The notes under the pieces were generated by a model, which was given only the letters and a program-made list of their open reading frames with translations, was not told where the DNA came from and did not search any database. Of a DNA stretch of 64,000 nucleotides, positions 10,437 through 17,999 are shown in pieces; within the stretch, counting starts at the first letter, position 1; each line of letters starts with the position of its first letter. The position numbers and the translations under genes are program-made. The DNA comes from an uncultured bacterium. Lineage in GTDB: Bacteria > Armatimonadota > UBA5829. The stretch spans positions 124,001 to 188,000 of the forward strand of contig CALJES010000006.1 in the NCBI GenBank assembly GCA_938074205.1, given 5' to 3'.

Positions 10437-12875
10437 TTAGATTATCGCCTCAACTAAGTCTTCGGCACGCCGTTCGACAATTCGACTGGTTTTGGTATGC
10501 TCGTCGAGCTCTACCCACAAGCAATTATCTACAGCTTCATGTATCGACTCGATGTGCGTGATTAGGATTATTTGCTCAAATCTGTTCTTCAAGTTTTGAA
10601 GCAAGCCTACAACGTTTTGTCGCCGAGCCTCATCGAGCGAGCCGAAGACTTCGTCCAGTATCAGTAGAGAAAACGATTGTCCAGCTCTATCAGCGATCAT
10701 TTGTGACACTGCCAGTCTCAATGCCAGGTTGACCACGTCGTCTTCGCCACCTGATATAACCGGCTTCTCCTCTCCATCGTCAACAATTACGGGCTTGTAA
10801 TCTTCATCAATGCGCAGCACGTTGTATCTTCCATCTGTCATCAGCGAAAGCAGTTGACTTGCCGTATACTCAAGCTCAGGTCTGATGCGATCGTTTAATT
10901 CTGCTCTAAGTTTGTCAAATGCCTCCGCTAAGGCACGCAAATGTGCAAGCTTGGTCCGCTTCAGACTCAACTCTTTAACTCGCAGCTCATAATCGCGCTG
11001 CTCACGTTCAACACTGTCGAGCAGAAGTCGTGCACTCTTGACGTCTCCTCTTCGCCGTTCAAGTTCCACGGCGGTAGTAGTCACAGCCTCGCTAGCTGCT
11101 TGGAAGTCTTGCGTGATGAGCTGGTGTTGTTCACTCGAAAACTGTAGATCTGCTACGGCTTGAGCCAGTGAGACGATCTCTTTCTTCAGTTGTTCAACGC
11201 GCGAAACTAAGCGAGCCTCCTCCTGACGCAATGCCGGCTCTCTGTCCAAGGCTGCCTTCAGCGCCACTGCTTTCTCGCGCACAGGTCGAAGCTCTTCACC
11301 AATTCTCTGCAGCAGCTGGAACCTGGATTGGTCAAATCCCTTGGGAAGCGAATCAAGACGCTTTCGGCATTCGACAAGTTCTGCTTTCCTGTGTTCAATG
11401 TCTCTGGCCAGCGTTTGGTGTTCTCGAACCTTGGCATCAACGTCTACCTTCTTTTTGCGGAGATTCTCAAGCTGATCCGCAAGTTCACTTCTCCGCGATG
11501 CAGACTCAGCAATCAATGAGTCATAACGCGACAAATCGGACAAACGCGTACTGAGACCATCCAGAGCTCGATCGATATCACTGATCTGCACATCAAATCG
11601 AGCGATTACTGCATCAAGCTCTTCTCCTAAAGGTCTCTCACAGGTTGGGCAAACGCCGTCGCGGCCTGCATCGGCAATTTGCGAGCGTTTGGACTGTACC
11701 TCGGCCCGGTGTTGCTTGAGCTGGTCTATCTGTGTATTAAGGGTGTGCTTCTTGGCAACGAACTCCTCACGAAGCCTCTGCGTCTCTTGTTCCGCGGACA
11801 AAAGAAGGGTCTGAGTCTCCGAAATTGCTGCCGCCAGTTTTGACTGTTCATCCCTTGCTGAGTTTAGCGCATTAACCCGACACTGAAGCCTATCTATTTC
11901 TGCCTCGAGGGTCTTTATCTGTCCAGAAAGCTGCTGCCGTTCAGCTTCGTGAACCTGCAACGCCTTCAGTTTTTTGTACTCAGCAGCCGCTTCATCGTAG
12001 CGCCGAAGATCGGGCTGAAGAGACTCCAGTTCACTGCGTTTTGCAGCCAGGTCTGCTAGTTCGGTGCGAAGCTGTTCCAAACGCTGTTCGGCGCTCTGCA
12101 AATCTGCTCTGAGCAGCTCGATGCGCCTATTGAGGCCTTCGTACTCCTTTGCCTTCCTATCGGAAGCATCTTTTACAGGAACAAGCTTGCTGAGCTTCTC
12201 TGCAGCCTCACGGTGATGAAGCTCCGCTTCATTAAGTGCCCCAGATGCCGCTGCTAGGTATTCCCGCGTCTCCTTGAGACGCCGCTTCAAATCTTCAGGA
12301 TCGGGTAGGCCCTTCTCCAAACCCTGAATTTCTCGCTCGAGTCCCAACCTATCCTGATTCGCCTGCTCACGTGCTTTGGTGAGACGATCGTACCCGAGCA
12401 TCCGGCTAATAGCCGCCTCACGCGCCCGTCCGTCCAGAGCAGCCATAAATTCAAGCTGCTTCTGTCCCGTGAAAAAGCTCGTGAAGAAAGCCCTATAATC
12501 CATTCCCAACAGGCGGGTTACGGTGTCTGTCACCTCCGACATACCAGAGCGAATAGGATGCCCATCTACTTCTAACACCGCTTGCCCTACTCTACCCGAC
12601 GGCTCAAGTGATCTCGTTATCTTGTAAATCTGGCCGTCTAGTTCGAAGGTAAGTGCAGCGCAAGGCCTAGCATTAGGTTCTGAAGTGTTAGATCTAATAG
12701 TCTCGTTTTTCCCTCGAACTGCAGGAGCACCATAGAGCGCCCAGGCAATTGCTTCAAGTATTGTCGTCTTGCCAGCGCCATTGGGGCCTATGATGCCTGT
12801 AACACCTGCAGGAAAGAAGACCAAGGCGTCTCTGTATTGTCGAAAGTTCTTGAGCTCGAGACTTATCAGCTTCAT
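10437..12875 (-). CDS. Rad50/SbcC-type SMC ATPase
   Basis: ATPase partner of the Mre11-like nuclease in processing DNA double-strand breaks. Walker A GPNGAGKTT is at 30-38. A long heptad coiled coil (about 165-700) is interrupted by the zinc hook CPTC (C409-C412). Near the C terminus the Walker B stretch LLILDEVFGSLDE lies after the region VVNLALRLAVSQMI, and a D-loop/H-loop region ends in LITHIESI. 812 aa is nearer archaeal Rad50 than the roughly 1050-aa E. coli SbcC. Last gene of the nurA-herA-mre11-rad50 operon, 27 bp after the nuclease gene. Confidence 0.93.
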   Translation of the reverse strand: MKLISLELKNFRQYRDALVFFPAGVTGIIGPNGAGKTTILEAIAWALYGAPAVRGKNETIRSNTSEPNARPCAALTFELDGQIYKITRSLEPSGRVGQAVLEVDGHPIRSGMSEVTDTVTRLLGMDYRAFFTSFFTGQKQLEFMAALDGRAREAAISRMLGYDRLTKAREQANQDRLGLEREIQGLEKGLPDPEDLKRRLKETREYLAAASGALNEAELHHREAAEKLSKLVPVKDASDRKAKEYEGLNRRIELLRADLQSAEQRLEQLRTELADLAAKRSELESLQPDLRRYDEAAAEYKKLKALQVHEAERQQLSGQIKTLEAEIDRLQCRVNALNSARDEQSKLAAAISETQTLLLSAEQETQRLREEFVAKKHTLNTQIDQLKQHRAEVQSKRSQIADAGRDGVCPTCERPLGEELDAVIARFDVQISDIDRALDGLSTRLSDLSRYDSLIAESASRRSELADQLENLRKKKVDVDAKVREHQTLARDIEHRKAELVECRKRLDSLPKGFDQSRFQLLQRIGEELRPVREKAVALKAALDREPALRQEEARLVSRVEQLKKEIVSLAQAVADLQFSSEQHQLITQDFQAASEAVTTTAVELERRRGDVKSARLLLDSVEREQRDYELRVKELSLKRTKLAHLRALAEAFDKLRAELNDRIRPELEYTASQLLSLMTDGRYNVLRIDEDYKPVIVDDGEEKPVISGGEDDVVNLALRLAVSQMIADRAGQSFSLLILDEVFGSLDEARRQNVVGLLQNLKNRFEQIILITHIESIHEAVDNCLWVELDEHTKTSRIVERRAEDLVEAII

Positions 12876-12902
12876 TGCATATCCGCACTTACAGCAAACG
12901 CT

Positions 12903-14042
12903 TTACTCAACAACATTCTGCTTCGCTAAGTATTCGCGACCCAAATCGATTAGATGTTCTCTGTCTATACCAGTAGCTACCTGGTAGGTCTTAGCGAACT
13001 CCTCCCATTCTGCCTCGAGAGGCTTGGTAGGACCGGTACCTCTCGAGAAGGCGTTATATTCACGAAGAGCTTGGGGTGGTCTGAAGTGTAGTTCAAAATG
13101 CAAAGCCTCAGCGCGAATACGTCGAATTGCTGCATAGTCCAAATCGGCCTGAACCAACCGCGGCACATTCTCAACTACGAGCCGAATAATTTTGTTTTGG
13201 AAACCACCTTCGATTGAGGCTACGCGCTGCTCGATTGCGCGGTCGAGTTCTTTGGCAGTAAGTCCCGACGCATCGATTCGACGTAGGTCGATGACTTCTC
13301 GAGTGTCAATCTCGTGAAACCGCACAAGACTGCGACTGTCTAGATCGTACTCGATGAAGCCCTTGGGTTTCGAAGTCTCGCTCCAAATCGATGTGCTTGT
13401 GTACTCAAGAGAACCTGCGTAAAACGCATTGTCACCCAGTTTCTCGAAAACGTGATAGTGGCCGAATGCCACATAATCCCAGTTGTTGGAAATTACTTGA
13501 GAACGCCTGATTTCATAGAGGTCGTATGGATGACGCAGAATGCCTTCCAGTGTTCCATGAGCAACTAGTATGTTGTAGTTGCTGGAGGGGTCGGGTTCGA
13601 TCTTCAAAGAAGACAACTGCGGCAACGCGCGATGACAAAGGCAAAATATTGATACACCCAAGTCTCGGAGAGGGATCTGGACATACTCCGTGTGTGCTAC
13701 GTACACGCCCTGCAAATTCGCATACAAGTCTAGTATGCAGCCGGTATCTACAGATCTTGGAGAGTCATGATTGCCTCCGATTATGACAATCGGCGCGTCC
13801 GTCTTTTGCCTGAGGAGGCAGAATTCTCGGAACGTGTGCTGAATAGTCAGGTTGCTAGGACGAACGACGTGAAAAAGATCGCCCGCAATGATTATAAGAT
13901 CGGGCGCAATCTCAGCAATCCGTCTCAGGGCAGTACGAAACGCATTGAATACGTCCGCCTCTCTCACGTTTATACCGGCTGGCGTCACGCGATTGTAGGC
14001 GCGGTAACCTAGATGCGGATCTGAAATGTGTACTATTCGCAT
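12903..14042 (-). CDS. Mre11/SbcD-type DNA double-strand break nuclease
   Basis: Calcineurin-like metallophosphoesterase acting as Mn-dependent 3'-5' exonuclease and endonuclease with the Rad50-like partner. Metal-site motifs in order: ISDPHLGY (D8, H10), IIAGDLFH, GGNHDSPRS, VAHGTLEG and FGHYHVFE. The C-terminal part (about 270-379) would hold the capping and Rad50-binding regions. 379 aa fits the family. It lies 27 bp upstream of the ATPase gene and 36 bp after herA, so all are probably on one message. Confidence 0.93.
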   Translation of the reverse strand: MRIVHISDPHLGYRAYNRVTPAGINVREADVFNAFRTALRRIAEIAPDLIIIAGDLFHVVRPSNLTIQHTFREFCLLRQKTDAPIVIIGGNHDSPRSVDTGCILDLYANLQGVYVAHTEYVQIPLRDLGVSIFCLCHRALPQLSSLKIEPDPSSNYNILVAHGTLEGILRHPYDLYEIRRSQVISNNWDYVAFGHYHVFEKLGDNAFYAGSLEYTSTSIWSETSKPKGFIEYDLDSRSLVRFHEIDTREVIDLRRIDASGLTAKELDRAIEQRVASIEGGFQNKIIRLVVENVPRLVQADLDYAAIRRIRAEALHFELHFRPPQALREYNAFSRGTGPTKPLEAEWEEFAKTYQVATGIDREHLIDLGREYLAKQNVVE

Positions 14043-14078
14043 GTTCGTGAGTATACTACCCAGCAGATTATCGCGTGT

Positions 14079-16067
14079 TCAGATCGTCTCAAACGGATCG
14101 GACCCGTCACTACCAGCATCTCTTATAACAATCTGGGGCCTGTCCTCGACGTTCGCAACCCCTGCCTTCTTGCGAATTGCGCTCCTGAAAAAAGAAGCCG
14201 GGTCCTGTGGATCGCGCTGTAAAGTAAGGTTCATGGCGCGGATTATTTCTTCAGGGTCGGAAGTTTGCGCGACGATATCCCTGACTTCGTTTCTACTAAT
14301 CGATGGATCCAAGCGAGATAGGTTCCGCCACACGGCCTCATCCAAAGGCAGATCTTCCTCAGGCGGGTATTTTCTGATGCCGTCGGGCCCGCGCATTATG
14401 TTAGGCCGCGGGAATTTGACAAATATGGGCTGTGTGAAATGCGGATGCCGAATCATCAATTGGCCTTTGGAAAGTGTTGCGAGTTTTTCTTTGGTAGCCG
14501 AAGTTAGAACTTGGTAACCAGGGGTAGCCAGCTCGTCCATGTCCATGCGCCCATAGATGCAAGTGCCCGAGTTTCCGACAATTCGCTTGTGGACTTGGCT
14601 ACGGAACTGTTGAGCAGAGAACAGAACCAGCCCCAAGTATCTACCGCGTTCCGAGATATCCAAAAGTGTTTGTCGCAGGTACGTATCTGGACCGTCGGAG
14701 GGTGCGTACTTGTTCAGCTCGTCGACAACAACAATGACGTGTTTCACACCCAGCTTTCCAGTTTCAAGATGGTGTCTAAGTTCTGAGACAATTCTTGTAA
14801 AAACCAGGTCTTGTGCCTGGGGCTCCAAATTTGCAACATCTACGACATATACAGTACGATCTTCAAATTGCCCCCACGGGAGATCAGATACAAATTCATC
14901 AGGACTGATGAGACCCTTGTACCTGGTGCTGAGATTCGACAGCCGGTTGTGAACCTTTCGTATGGTTGCGTAATGGTGTGTCTTCCATTCGGATCTATTA
15001 CTCTCTTCCATCTCGCGCATAACCAGATCGAACCACCGATTAAGTTCTTGAAAGTTGCGCACGGTTATCTGCTGACCATTGGCCTCGGTTGTTTGATTGA
15101 TGACACGCTGCCTAATGAACTCGATAAGCGCATCAGCTTTGGCATCTATATCGTCCCTGTTCAGAACAACCTCCGTGAACTCAAGCACCTCGTTCAAACC
15201 CCAAGACAAGGGTATCACTGACTGAATCAATTCCGGGTTAGTGCGAAGAGTATTCAAGTTCACACGATCAGGTTTGAACGGGGCGTAATACTTGACATTT
15301 CTAAACGGCTCGCAAGGCACACGTAATAGCCTGTGCATTTCGATGTCCTGCTCGTCGAGAATGTTCTCGTCCGCGGGATGATCCAGAAAAAGCAGGTCTG
15401 AACCTTTCACATTGAAGCAAACTACCGCGACGTCCTCCTTGAAATGCTCGAAGATGGAAAGCAAGATGAATTCGATCGCGCTGGTTTTTGTCGCCAACCC
15501 TGAAACTCCGGTTATGTTCAGATGGGCAGCTTCGGGACCGAGTAGGAACTCGCTGTCGATGTAGACAGGCGACAATTCGTCGCCGTTTTGGTAGAGACCC
15601 ACAGGGATGCCTGTAGTGTATTGAAACGAATCCATTCTTAGTGCTTTTGCAACCGAGGCATCGTCCGCGAGATATACGGGTGCAACAGGCACCGGCTGCA
15701 GCGGCTCTTCCGGCTCCACACGCAGTACCGCTGCCCTGTAGCACCTGACCTCAGGGCGAGACGTTTGAACCTCTAGGCGAGGATCACCATTTAGACCAAT
15801 GTACTCGTGCAGGGCTGATTCTAAATCTGTAAAGCTGAAACCCTCAACCACGACTCCATACGCGCGGGTTCTGGAGCCGATCGCTACAACCAAAGTACCA
15901 ATGCCGACTCTGACGTCATCGCAGCTTGTCCAGAAATAAAACTCGTACGCGGTGTTCGGCTTTTCTTTTGTCGCGATTACTCTGCCTATCTGACGATCGG
16001 CAGACAAGTCTGAGAAGACTAAAGATTCGTATTCAACACGCGAAGAGTCTTTCTGTTTATTGACCAT
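14079..16067 (-). CDS. HerA-like bidirectional DNA helicase/translocase
   Basis: Hexameric FtsK/HerA-type ATPase that in archaea pairs with the nuclease NurA and with Mre11-Rad50 to resect DNA ends. The N-terminal barrel covers about 1-170. The P-loop is at 187-196 (GVSGLATKTS, a GxxGxxxKT form) and Walker B at 446-450 (VIVVVDELNKYAP). The segment ISERGRYLGLVLFSAQQ holds the expected Arg and sensor residues, and VGNSGTCIYGRM follows. A C-terminal tail of about 90 aa ends the protein. Its start overlaps the end of nurA by 11 bp. The sirtuin upstream raises the Sir2-HerA defence idea, but the NurA/Mre11/Rad50 company fits repair. Confidence 0.88.
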   Translation of the reverse strand: MVNKQKDSSRVEYESLVFSDLSADRQIGRVIATKEKPNTAYEFYFWTSCDDVRVGIGTLVVAIGSRTRAYGVVVEGFSFTDLESALHEYIGLNGDPRLEVQTSRPEVRCYRAAVLRVEPEEPLQPVPVAPVYLADDASVAKALRMDSFQYTTGIPVGLYQNGDELSPVYIDSEFLLGPEAAHLNITGVSGLATKTSAIEFILLSIFEHFKEDVAVVCFNVKGSDLLFLDHPADENILDEQDIEMHRLLRVPCEPFRNVKYYAPFKPDRVNLNTLRTNPELIQSVIPLSWGLNEVLEFTEVVLNRDDIDAKADALIEFIRQRVINQTTEANGQQITVRNFQELNRWFDLVMREMEESNRSEWKTHHYATIRKVHNRLSNLSTRYKGLISPDEFVSDLPWGQFEDRTVYVVDVANLEPQAQDLVFTRIVSELRHHLETGKLGVKHVIVVVDELNKYAPSDGPDTYLRQTLLDISERGRYLGLVLFSAQQFRSQVHKRIVGNSGTCIYGRMDMDELATPGYQVLTSATKEKLATLSKGQLMIRHPHFTQPIFVKFPRPNIMRGPDGIRKYPPEEDLPLDEAVWRNLSRLDPSISRNEVRDIVAQTSDPEEIIRAMNLTLQRDPQDPASFFRSAIRKKAGVANVEDRPQIVIRDAGSDGSDPFETI

Positions 16068-17094
16068 TCGTTATATCCTCCCGGCCAAGGGCAAATCGTA
16101 TCAGCACTGCATCAAGAACCGTTTTGCTAGGAGCGCGCGACCTAAGAAACTGTTCACAATCATATATCGGGTAAAGCATCCTATCCCATCGAGAATCCGG
16201 CAGGCTAATCGGCACGCGTTCTGCGAGCAACCACCTAGAAATTTCGTCCACCATCTCTATCGTTCGATCACACTTTGCTGCTTCTACTCTGACAAGACCA
16301 AAGTGCAAATCTTGGCCCTCACTCGGCCACAGCCTCAAGTACCAGCTGTAGACGTCGGGTCGGTTCCTACCTTTGGGTATAAAAAGACCGCTTCTTTCGC
16401 CGACCCGTAGCGCATGTATCTTCCGCTGGTCATCGATCGAAAAGTATTGTGTCTGGTGACTTTTTATGACACCAACAACGTTCGGCGCCGAATAGCGATC
16501 GTATCCTCCTGAAATAGACCCGTCGACCAGAAGCCATTCGTCCAAGCCGTCAAAGTCCGCGAGCCACTGGGAAGTCATTTGAGCCTCAAGCTTGGAACGG
16601 ACATCCGAAACTTTCTTTCTCGCCGCTTGCAGTAAGACCATCGGATGATCTTCAAGGGTGTTAGCACCCTCTTCGATTTCGACCACATCAAGGTCTTTGC
16701 CGAGTAAACTCAAGTCTACCAACCTTCCTGGGCAGAACAGTGCCTCTCGCTCAACAGGATTACCGTGTGCATACATCCGCTTATTGGGAGCACGGTAACG
16801 GATCCCAGCTGCCGCATATCCGTACAGAATAGGTATACCGGAGATGTACATCACGAGGCGCCTACGCTCTATGCCGTCTAGAAAATATGAGAACCTGCTA
16901 GGGCGAGGTTCGCCGACTGATACCGCGTCTATTCTGCCGGACGGTTCAACGATTTCGGCAGATGCAATTTGCGGGACAGCAAGCGTCACAGCGGACGATT
17001 CTTCCTCGGTAAAATCTCCATTGGTTACAACGTGTACTCGCGGGTCCGCTAGATGTACAATGCTTGAGGCCAATTTGCGCAGGAGTTCGCTCAT
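16057..17094 (-). CDS. NurA-domain 5'-3' nuclease
   Basis: Candidate end-resection nuclease working with HerA. Two acidic metal-site motifs typical of NurA are visible, counted from the GTG at 17103: FSYFLDGIER (D76) and LLVDGSISGG (D194). The usual C-terminal strand/helix block ends in MLYPIYDCEQFLRSR. About 345 aa is normal. The ATG at 17094 is chosen because the -10 element ends at 17109, which puts the upstream in-frame GTG (17103) at or before the transcription start. First gene of the four-gene operon; overlaps herA by 11 bp. NurA proteins diverge strongly, so the call leans on both motifs and context. Confidence 0.82.
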   Translation of the reverse strand: MSELLRKLASSIVHLADPRVHVVTNGDFTEEESSAVTLAVPQIASAEIVEPSGRIDAVSVGEPRPSRFSYFLDGIERRRLVMYISGIPILYGYAAAGIRYRAPNKRMYAHGNPVEREALFCPGRLVDLSLLGKDLDVVEIEEGANTLEDHPMVLLQAARKKVSDVRSKLEAQMTSQWLADFDGLDEWLLVDGSISGGYDRYSAPNVVGVIKSHQTQYFSIDDQRKIHALRVGERSGLFIPKGRNRPDVYSWYLRLWPSEGQDLHFGLVRVEAAKCDRTIEMVDEISRWLLAERVPISLPDSRWDRMLYPIYDCEQFLRSRAPSKTVLDAVLIRFALGREDITNGQ

Positions 17095-17108
17095 TGCAGC
17101 CACTGTAG

Positions 17109-17137
17109 AATGTACTACTGGCAGAGGGAAATGTCAA
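17109..17137 (-). promoter_or_regulatory. Sigma-70 promoter of the nurA-herA-mre11-rad50 operon
   Basis: Minus strand TTGACA (17137-17132), 17-bp spacer, TACATT (17114-17109). The predicted start point lies within about 10 nt of the nurA ATG, giving an almost leaderless mRNA. It separates this operon from the sirtuin gene. Confidence 0.72.
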
Positions 17138-17228: not shown

Positions 17229-17999
17229 CTACTTACCCTGGCCTTTCGTCACGGATTCCCATATCCGTGGCAGAGCGACACCTGCGGGTTCGGAAATCCA
17301 AAAGTGTGCGTACTGAGTCAGCATGCCCTCTGAAGGATTTATCTCTACCACCGTGGCCCCGTTTGACCTAGCTTGCTGGGCAAAGCCGTAACCACCAGAG
17401 ACTTCCCCGGATGTTCCTACTACGAGCATTAGCTCGCACCTGTAAACCGCGTCCAACGCTGCAGCTATCGCCTCTTGCGGAACGTATTCTCCGAACCAGA
17501 CTATATTCGGTCTGCACAAGCTGCCGCAGCCGGGACATTTCGGCAGACTTTCCTTGGTAAACTCATCTGGTAGGTTATAATCGCGTATGTCAAAAATTCT
17601 ACCGCACTCCAAACACCTCATCTGCCACGCGTCACCGTGCAGTTTCACTATCTTACGGCTCCCAGCCCTTTCGTGCAGGTCATCGACGTTCTGCGTGCAA
17701 AGTAAAAAGTCCGGGTAGTACTGTTCCATCTGGGCAATTGTTACGTGCGCCAGGTTTGGCTGCGCTGATGCTATCTGACGCTGTCTCAGCCTGTACAAGT
17801 TCCAGACCTTGACTGGCTCAGAAATGAACCCCTCGAAGGTAGCGAAAGTCATTGGGTCGTGCTTGCTCCACTCGCCGTCGATTTCGCGGAATGTAGGCAG
17901 CCCGGATTCTTTACTTGCACCTGCGCCGGTAAACACGAAGACGCGCTTTGCATTTCGCATTATCTCAATTAGGTTCTTGTGCTGTTCCACCTTACTCAT
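17229..17999 (-). CDS. Sir2-family NAD-dependent protein deacylase
   Basis: Removes acyl groups from protein lysines using NAD. NAD-binding GAGASKESGLPTFR is at about 25-38, with TQNVDDLHERAG following. The catalytic His is H121 (KLHGDAW), and the zinc cysteines are C129, C132, C155 and C158. Y69-x-x-R72 (WNLYRLRQ) matches the Tyr/Arg pair that recognises negatively charged acyl groups in class III sirtuins such as SIRT5 and CobB, so desuccinylase-type activity is possible. 256 aa. AGGAG precedes the ATG, with a TATAAT at 18020-18025. Same strand as the nurA operon but probably a separate transcript. Confidence 0.92.
   Translation of the reverse strand: MSKVEQHKNLIEIMRNAKRVFVFTGAGASKESGLPTFREIDGEWSKHDPMTFATFEGFISEPVKVWNLYRLRQRQIASAQPNLAHVTIAQMEQYYPDFLLCTQNVDDLHERAGSRKIVKLHGDAWQMRCLECGRIFDIRDYNLPDEFTKESLPKCPGCGSLCRPNIVWFGEYVPQEAIAAALDAVYRCELMLVVGTSGEVSGGYGFAQQARSNGATVVEINPSEGMLTQYAHFWISEPAGVALPRIWESVTKGQGK

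Follow-up and report, generated by a model that had tools for sequence, protein, structure and literature searches.

The 64,000-nucleotide (nt) stretch of DNA analyzed here (the window; positions 124,001 to 188,000 of contig CALJES010000006.1, assembly GCA_938074205.1) belongs to an Armatimonadota bacterium whose genome of 3.02 Mb is 97.9% complete. Between positions 17094 and 10437 the window carries four intact open genes on the minus strand, nurA, herA, mre11 and rad50, which together encode a candidate machinery for processing DNA ends and appear to be old residents of the bacterial groups that hold them.

The locus

The first gene, nurA (16057..17094, minus strand), starts with an ATG at 17094, with an alternative GTG upstream at 17103, and encodes a NurA-type nuclease of 345 amino acids (aa) that we recognized through profile and model matches. 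It overlaps herA by 11 bp. The product of herA (14079..16067, minus strand; 662 aa) is a hexameric DNA translocase, a HerA of Deinococcus type, assigned by its match to PDB 7f6d and the mapping of its motifs. A gap of 36 bp leads to mre11 (12903..14042, minus strand; 379 aa), whose product is an Mre11-type nuclease by its Pfam Metallophos match, its archaeal Mre11 match, its motifs and its tree. A further gap of 27 bp leads to rad50 (10437..12875, minus strand; 812 aa), which encodes a short Rad50 ATPase with a CPTC zinc hook, as indicated by an archaeal Rad50 head match, motifs and a tree. An earlier note, made from this sequence alone, had described four same-strand genes with overlaps or short gaps and had named NurA, HerA, Mre11 and a short Rad50 with zinc hook as their products. 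The gene arrangement is as described, and profile, fold and motif evidence bears out all four identities.

A sigma-70-like promoter, TTGACA-17-TACATT (17109..17137, minus strand; score 10/12), lies 14 nt before the nurA ATG. The raw count of such sites in the region is at chance level (7 sites against 7.3 expected). Nevertheless, the site is retained in the sister species (locus L031) despite diverged flanks, and nearly all order-level relatives examined have a site scoring 9-11/12 upstream of nurA, against the roughly 0.1 site per sequence that we estimate from the raw-scan rate. Because of this conservation in the sister species and order-level relatives, we uphold the proposal that the operon has its own promoter.

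NurA and HerA

NurA as a single sequence found no match in Pfam, NCBIfam or PADLOC searches, a search of the genome with the Pfam NurA family (PF09376) found none either, and 3 of 19 NurA relatives match that family, weakly. Identification therefore needed profile and fold searches. A 19-member NurA profile matched two bacterial NurA structures, TM1739 (E 2.2e-5) and that of Deinococcus radiodurans (drNurA; E 8e-5). The AlphaFold model (pLDDT, the predicted local distance difference test score, 88.3) has the RNase H-like NurA fold and matches drNurA in Foldseek at E 5e-14. Its Z scores are 20.8 to drNurA and 19.9 to TM1739. The three archaeal NurAs compared score 13.8 (Sso NurA), 12.6 and 11.9, and the NurA-like subunit of TdpAB scores 14.4. 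As modeled, then, NurA is nearer to the bacterial (Deinococcus/Thermotoga) NurAs than to the archaeal ones.

Loss of the NurA metal residues, which the earlier note had named as grounds for abandoning the assignment, did not occur: the metal carboxylates D73, E170 and D191 are invariant in 19 relatives, as is the assisting lysine K211. Read from the fold, D73 probably corresponds to D53, and K211 would align to K201 of drNurA provided that the drNurA chain has a 20-residue tag. One Gemmatimonadetes NurA (L126:6982-7971) has alanine at the D73 position and asparagine at the K211 equivalent, yet its operon is retained; this NurA is possibly inactive.

HerA alone matched D. radiodurans HerA (drHerA; PDB 7f6d) at E 9.6e-46. 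A 16-member HerA profile found the same protein as its sole match in PDB (E 6e-61), with no archaeal HerA there at E<=0.01. The Walker A residues K194/T195, the Walker B residues D449/E450 and the catalytic aspartate D224 correspond to K175/T176, D487/E488 and D220 of drHerA and are invariant in relatives. HerA and NurA are both of the bacterial (Deinococcus/Thermotoga) type.

Mre11 and Rad50

Mre11 matches Pfam Metallophos at E 4e-16, has archaeal Mre11 as its top PDB matches (E 8e-18) and scores below the TIGR00619 SbcD cut-off. Its phosphoesterase residues (D8, H10, D55, N91, H92, H162, H195 and H197) are invariant in relatives. The top PDB matches of Rad50 are archaeal Rad50 heads (E 7e-28), and its Walker A motif, CPTC hook (residues 409-412), SGGE signature, DE Walker B motif and H-loop are invariant in 10 relatives.

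In the Mre11 tree the operon proteins group together (95/88); the SbcD clade (94/90) and the Mre11 proteins of M. jannaschii and P. furiosus fall outside this group. The operon Rad50 proteins likewise form one clade (100/98), apart from SbcC and the two archaeal Rad50 sequences. Archaea are represented in each tree by two sequences, taken from PDB alignments. Judged from these trees, Mre11 and Rad50 of the operon constitute a bacterial clade of their own that takes in neither SbcCD nor the two sampled archaeal sequences, and the placement inside ordinary SbcCD that the earlier note had considered did not materialize. Unlinked Mre11-Rad50 pairs of Armatimonadota families f2, f6 and f8 fall in the operon-type clade, so either the Mre11-Rad50 lineage predates the linkage in the class or the linkage was lost in some members.

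Distribution of the operon

NurA is encoded in 27 of 61 Armatimonadota genomes, including the one studied here. It is found throughout the window's order, apart from a genus of the same family, with three genomes, and a genome that is 67% complete; in the phylum beyond that order it is patchy. Of 121 Gemmatimonadota genomes, 61 also have a strong NurA match. Scanning genome contigs for HerA recovered 80 loci, mostly from Gemmatimonadota, and among the 50 with room on both sides, 45 have nurA-herA-mre11-rad50 on the same strand and in the same order; this four-gene order was also found in Armatimonadota relatives. The spacing between herA and mre11 is below 300 bp in 21 of the 45 ordered loci, and about 0.8 kb separates the two genes in many Gemmatimonadota. 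In many members of that phylum, for example at L093, L096, L102 and L130, a predicted exported protein of about 280 aa is inserted between them.

On an rpoB tree, the nurA state changes about 9 times across 115 genomes. The order-wide presence of NurA and the same gene order across Gemmatimonadota indicate that the operon is old and mainly vertically inherited in these groups. Together with the bacterial type of HerA and NurA and the separate clade of Mre11 and Rad50, this gives no support to the portrayal of the operon as archaeal in style and acquired by transfer. The HerA tree groups sequences by phylum without a settled deep order or root, drHerA being far too distant (branch 10), and we therefore make no claim as to which phylum could have been donor and which recipient.

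Other end-processing enzymes

Family searches of the genome, on which the absences of AddAB and SbcCD rest, found PDDEXK_1 just twice, in open frames of 387 aa and 198 aa, and one UvrD_C helicase (721 aa), whereas AddA, AddB and RecB elsewhere in the phylum are frames of roughly 1000-1400 aa. Because its own PDDEXK and UvrD frames are too short, we consider AddAB/RecBCD absent from this genome at the sensitivity of the search, which answers a question raised by the earlier note. Its suggestion that the cluster stands in place of the usual sbcDC also agrees with these searches, which found no SbcD above the cut-off and no second Rad50. RecJ and RecO are present. Elsewhere, three NurA-bearing genomes encode a fusion of a UvrD helicase with PDDEXK (1097 aa in G016:C37; truncated frames in G005:C50 and G017:C39); on all three contigs it is accompanied by a second Mre11-like phosphoesterase, apparently a different end-processing or defense pair.

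Across Gemmatimonadota, AddAB-type PDDEXK occurs in 54 of 121 genomes, namely in 9 of 61 with NurA versus 45 of 60 without it (table 9/52/45/15, Fisher p 1e-11). For Armatimonadota, AddAB is found in 2 of the 12 genomes that carry the four-gene operon versus 32 of 49 others (p 0.003). Two switches inside the Gemmatimonadota NurA clade (G101, G102) go the same way, and several NurA losses in that phylum come without AddAB. A distant NurA-like match (39-66 bits) appears in 12 Gemmatimonadota genomes (e.g., G100, G134 and G146), all of which have AddAB.

Discussion

The best explanation of these data is that the operon encodes a bacterial four-protein machine for resecting double-strand-break ends, vertically kept, which replaces AddAB/RecBCD and canonical SbcCD in its own genome; we put the probability of this reading at roughly 0.7. 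The identities, the motifs, the conserved operon and promoter, and the missing AddAB and second SbcCD are direct observations, while the reaction itself, its strand polarity and a hand-over between two sub-complexes would follow the example of homologues. Mre11-Rad50 would first bind a broken or blocked DNA end and clean or open it. The HerA hexamer would then drive the duplex into the NurA dimer, which would repeatedly cut the 5' strand and leave a 3' tail. RecJ and RecO would finish and use this tail, with RecA loading via the RecF/RecO pathway. Translocation-coupled 5' resection has been demonstrated for drNurA-HerA (PMC9960219). Joint action of NurA-HerA with Mre11-Rad50 is suggested by their linkage and by Sulfolobus work, in which an Mre11-HerA interaction is reported (PMC2288612).

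Several observations weigh against a resection machine that replaces AddAB. The translocation (pore) arginines of drHerA, R495 and R552, are replaced in the alignment by S457 and T515 in the HerA described here; these arginines are a feature described for drHerA and do not define the HerA family, and K453, a lysine near the lost pore arginine position, is kept. Thermococcus HerA-NurA degrades both strands, and a 2026 study questions its resection role and argues for an antiviral one (PMC12977600). NurA and AddAB are not exclusive across Armatimonadota overall (p 0.12), and 9 Gemmatimonadota genomes carry both. The exclusion in Gemmatimonadota is mostly one deep split on the rpoB tree, between a 71-row NurA clade and a 44-row AddAB remainder. 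Phylogenetically independent pairs always have NurA and AddAB in opposite states but are too few for significance (p 0.5). Since the deep split dominates the signal, independent pairs are few and the NurA-wide comparison in Armatimonadota is not significant, we regard functional replacement of AddAB by the operon as likely, and we do not grade it higher. A broader proposal, in which a fixed and native bacterial NurA-HerA-Mre11-Rad50 replaced AddAB in Gemmatimonadota and much of Armatimonadota as a third major resection pathway beside RecBCD/AddAB and RecQ-RecJ, is tentative, and its odds are a little short of even.

It is possible, though unlikely, that the operon consists of two independent adjacent modules sharing only a promoter, with NurA-HerA resecting or degrading DNA and Mre11-Rad50 cleaving hairpins or protein-blocked ends as SbcCD does. 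Armatimonadota families f6 and f8 hold Mre11-Rad50 of the same type (L172, L174) apart from nurA-herA, the pair lies on a separate contig in G015 and G017 (L168, L169), and the wide herA-mre11 spacing of many Gemmatimonadota would also suit separate modules. Against this stands the single order and strand kept in 45 of 50 loci.

Anti-phage defense, in which HerA-NurA would degrade foreign linear DNA and Mre11-Rad50 would mark its ends, seems to us improbable as the primary role. HerA-nuclease pairs (HerA-SIR2, HerA-DUF4297 and TdpAB) are defense modules elsewhere, as cited in PMC12977600; our NurA model matches the NurA-like subunit of TdpAB, HerA has a PADLOC mad8 match (E 6.5e-14), and a Sir2 gene lies immediately upstream. 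However, drNurA and TM1739 are clearly nearer to NurA than TdpAB is. The genes around the operon are rpmE, DUF1385, prfA, prmC, Sua5 and the Sir2-family deacylase, with no defense genes among them, so that the context is one of housekeeping, including translation genes (prfA, prmC, rpmE, Sua5), and not a defense island. The Sir2 neighbor, at 259.8 bits against a cut-off of 243, is classed as an ordinary NAD-dependent deacylase, and with this housekeeping context we rejected the defense-module reading that likeness to HerA-SIR2 and TdpAB had raised. This CobB-type gene (17229-17999, minus strand) adjoins nurA on its upstream side, with synteny shared by several members of the family. Near-vertical retention over a class-level clade also argues against defense, and the near-exclusion of AddAB suggests a core role common to both systems; phage DNA is, however, also degraded by RecBCD-like enzymes. 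Because the operon is retained vertically, sits among housekeeping genes and nearly excludes AddAB, we favor repair over an antiviral role, while allowing for both.

Recent lateral gain of an archaeal operon is very improbable: the gene content is the archaeal set and Mre11 and Rad50 score better against archaeal models than against SbcCD, but the HerA profile reached drHerA and no archaeal structure, NurA is nearer to bacterial NurAs, the Mre11 and Rad50 clades are separate from the two archaeal sequences, and the distribution covers the order and reaches across two phyla. An ancient archaeal source is possible at this archaeal sampling.

The resection machine proposed here can be set against four known systems. 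It shares with D. radiodurans NurA-HerA (PDB 7F6D; PMC9960219) the bacterial-type folds, the Walker and metal residues and a genome without AddAB/RecBCD. It differs in the unconserved R495 and R552 and in having mre11-rad50 in the same operon, whereas D. radiodurans is stated to have no Mre11-Rad50 (PMC12977600). The nurA-hepA-sbcD-sbcC cluster of Oceanithermus profundus also places herA before Mre11/Rad50 homologues in a bacterium, a single published case in which bacterial SbcD and SbcC were taken to have been recruited (PMC5448004). Here, by contrast, a separate Mre11-Rad50 lineage is kept across two phyla; this comparison takes O. profundus from its published description. The archaeal herA-mre11-rad50-nurA operon (Sulfolobus, Pyrococcus, Thermococcus) combines the same four functions, and its Mre11 and Rad50 are of similar length and give the best profile scores; its NurA and HerA are not of the bacterial type found here, and the Mre11 and Rad50 described here form a clade separate from the two archaeal sequences sampled. 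Its gene order is also different. Canonical SbcCD (E. coli and other Armatimonadota) belongs to the same Mre11/Rad50 superfamily and is likewise an adjacent D-C pair. The proteins described here differ from it in their separate clade in both trees, their score below the TIGR00619 cut-off and their linkage to nurA-herA.

Published accounts (PMC9960219, PMC12977600) confine bacterial NurA-HerA to a small number of bacteria, Deinococcus-Thermus among them, and take it to have probably come from archaea. Our literature search found nothing joining NurA and HerA with Gemmatimonadetes and nothing relevant for Armatimonadetes. The breadth of the operon, its constant link with a distinct Mre11-Rad50 lineage and its near-exclusion of AddAB appear to be unreported in the papers searched. 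The operon is common in one large soil phylum, Gemmatimonadota, and in part of another, and nearly excludes AddAB there. Bacterial NurA-HerA may also be old within Bacteria. If so, the proposed third major bacterial resection pathway would be native to Bacteria and not borrowed from Archaea. Mesophilic bacteria that bear the operon allow a test of two disputed roles of HerA-NurA, break resection in the service of recombination and the destruction of foreign DNA.

Two further features concern the start of nurA. Four genomes of genus g3 (L032, L033, L036 and L037) have a LexA-like box, CTAACGTATGTTCG or CTAACACATGTTCG, upstream of nurA (12/13 against the Gram-positive consensus), which suggests SOS control of nurA in that genus. 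Unlike in genus g3, there is no such box near the nurA promoter in the window, and for this reason we do not extend the suggestion to the window's operon. The nurA ATG follows the -10 element by 14 nt, and no ribosome-binding site is evident (17094-17114). The geometry is similar in the sister species, and the start of nurA is, by its predicted promoter, near-leaderless.

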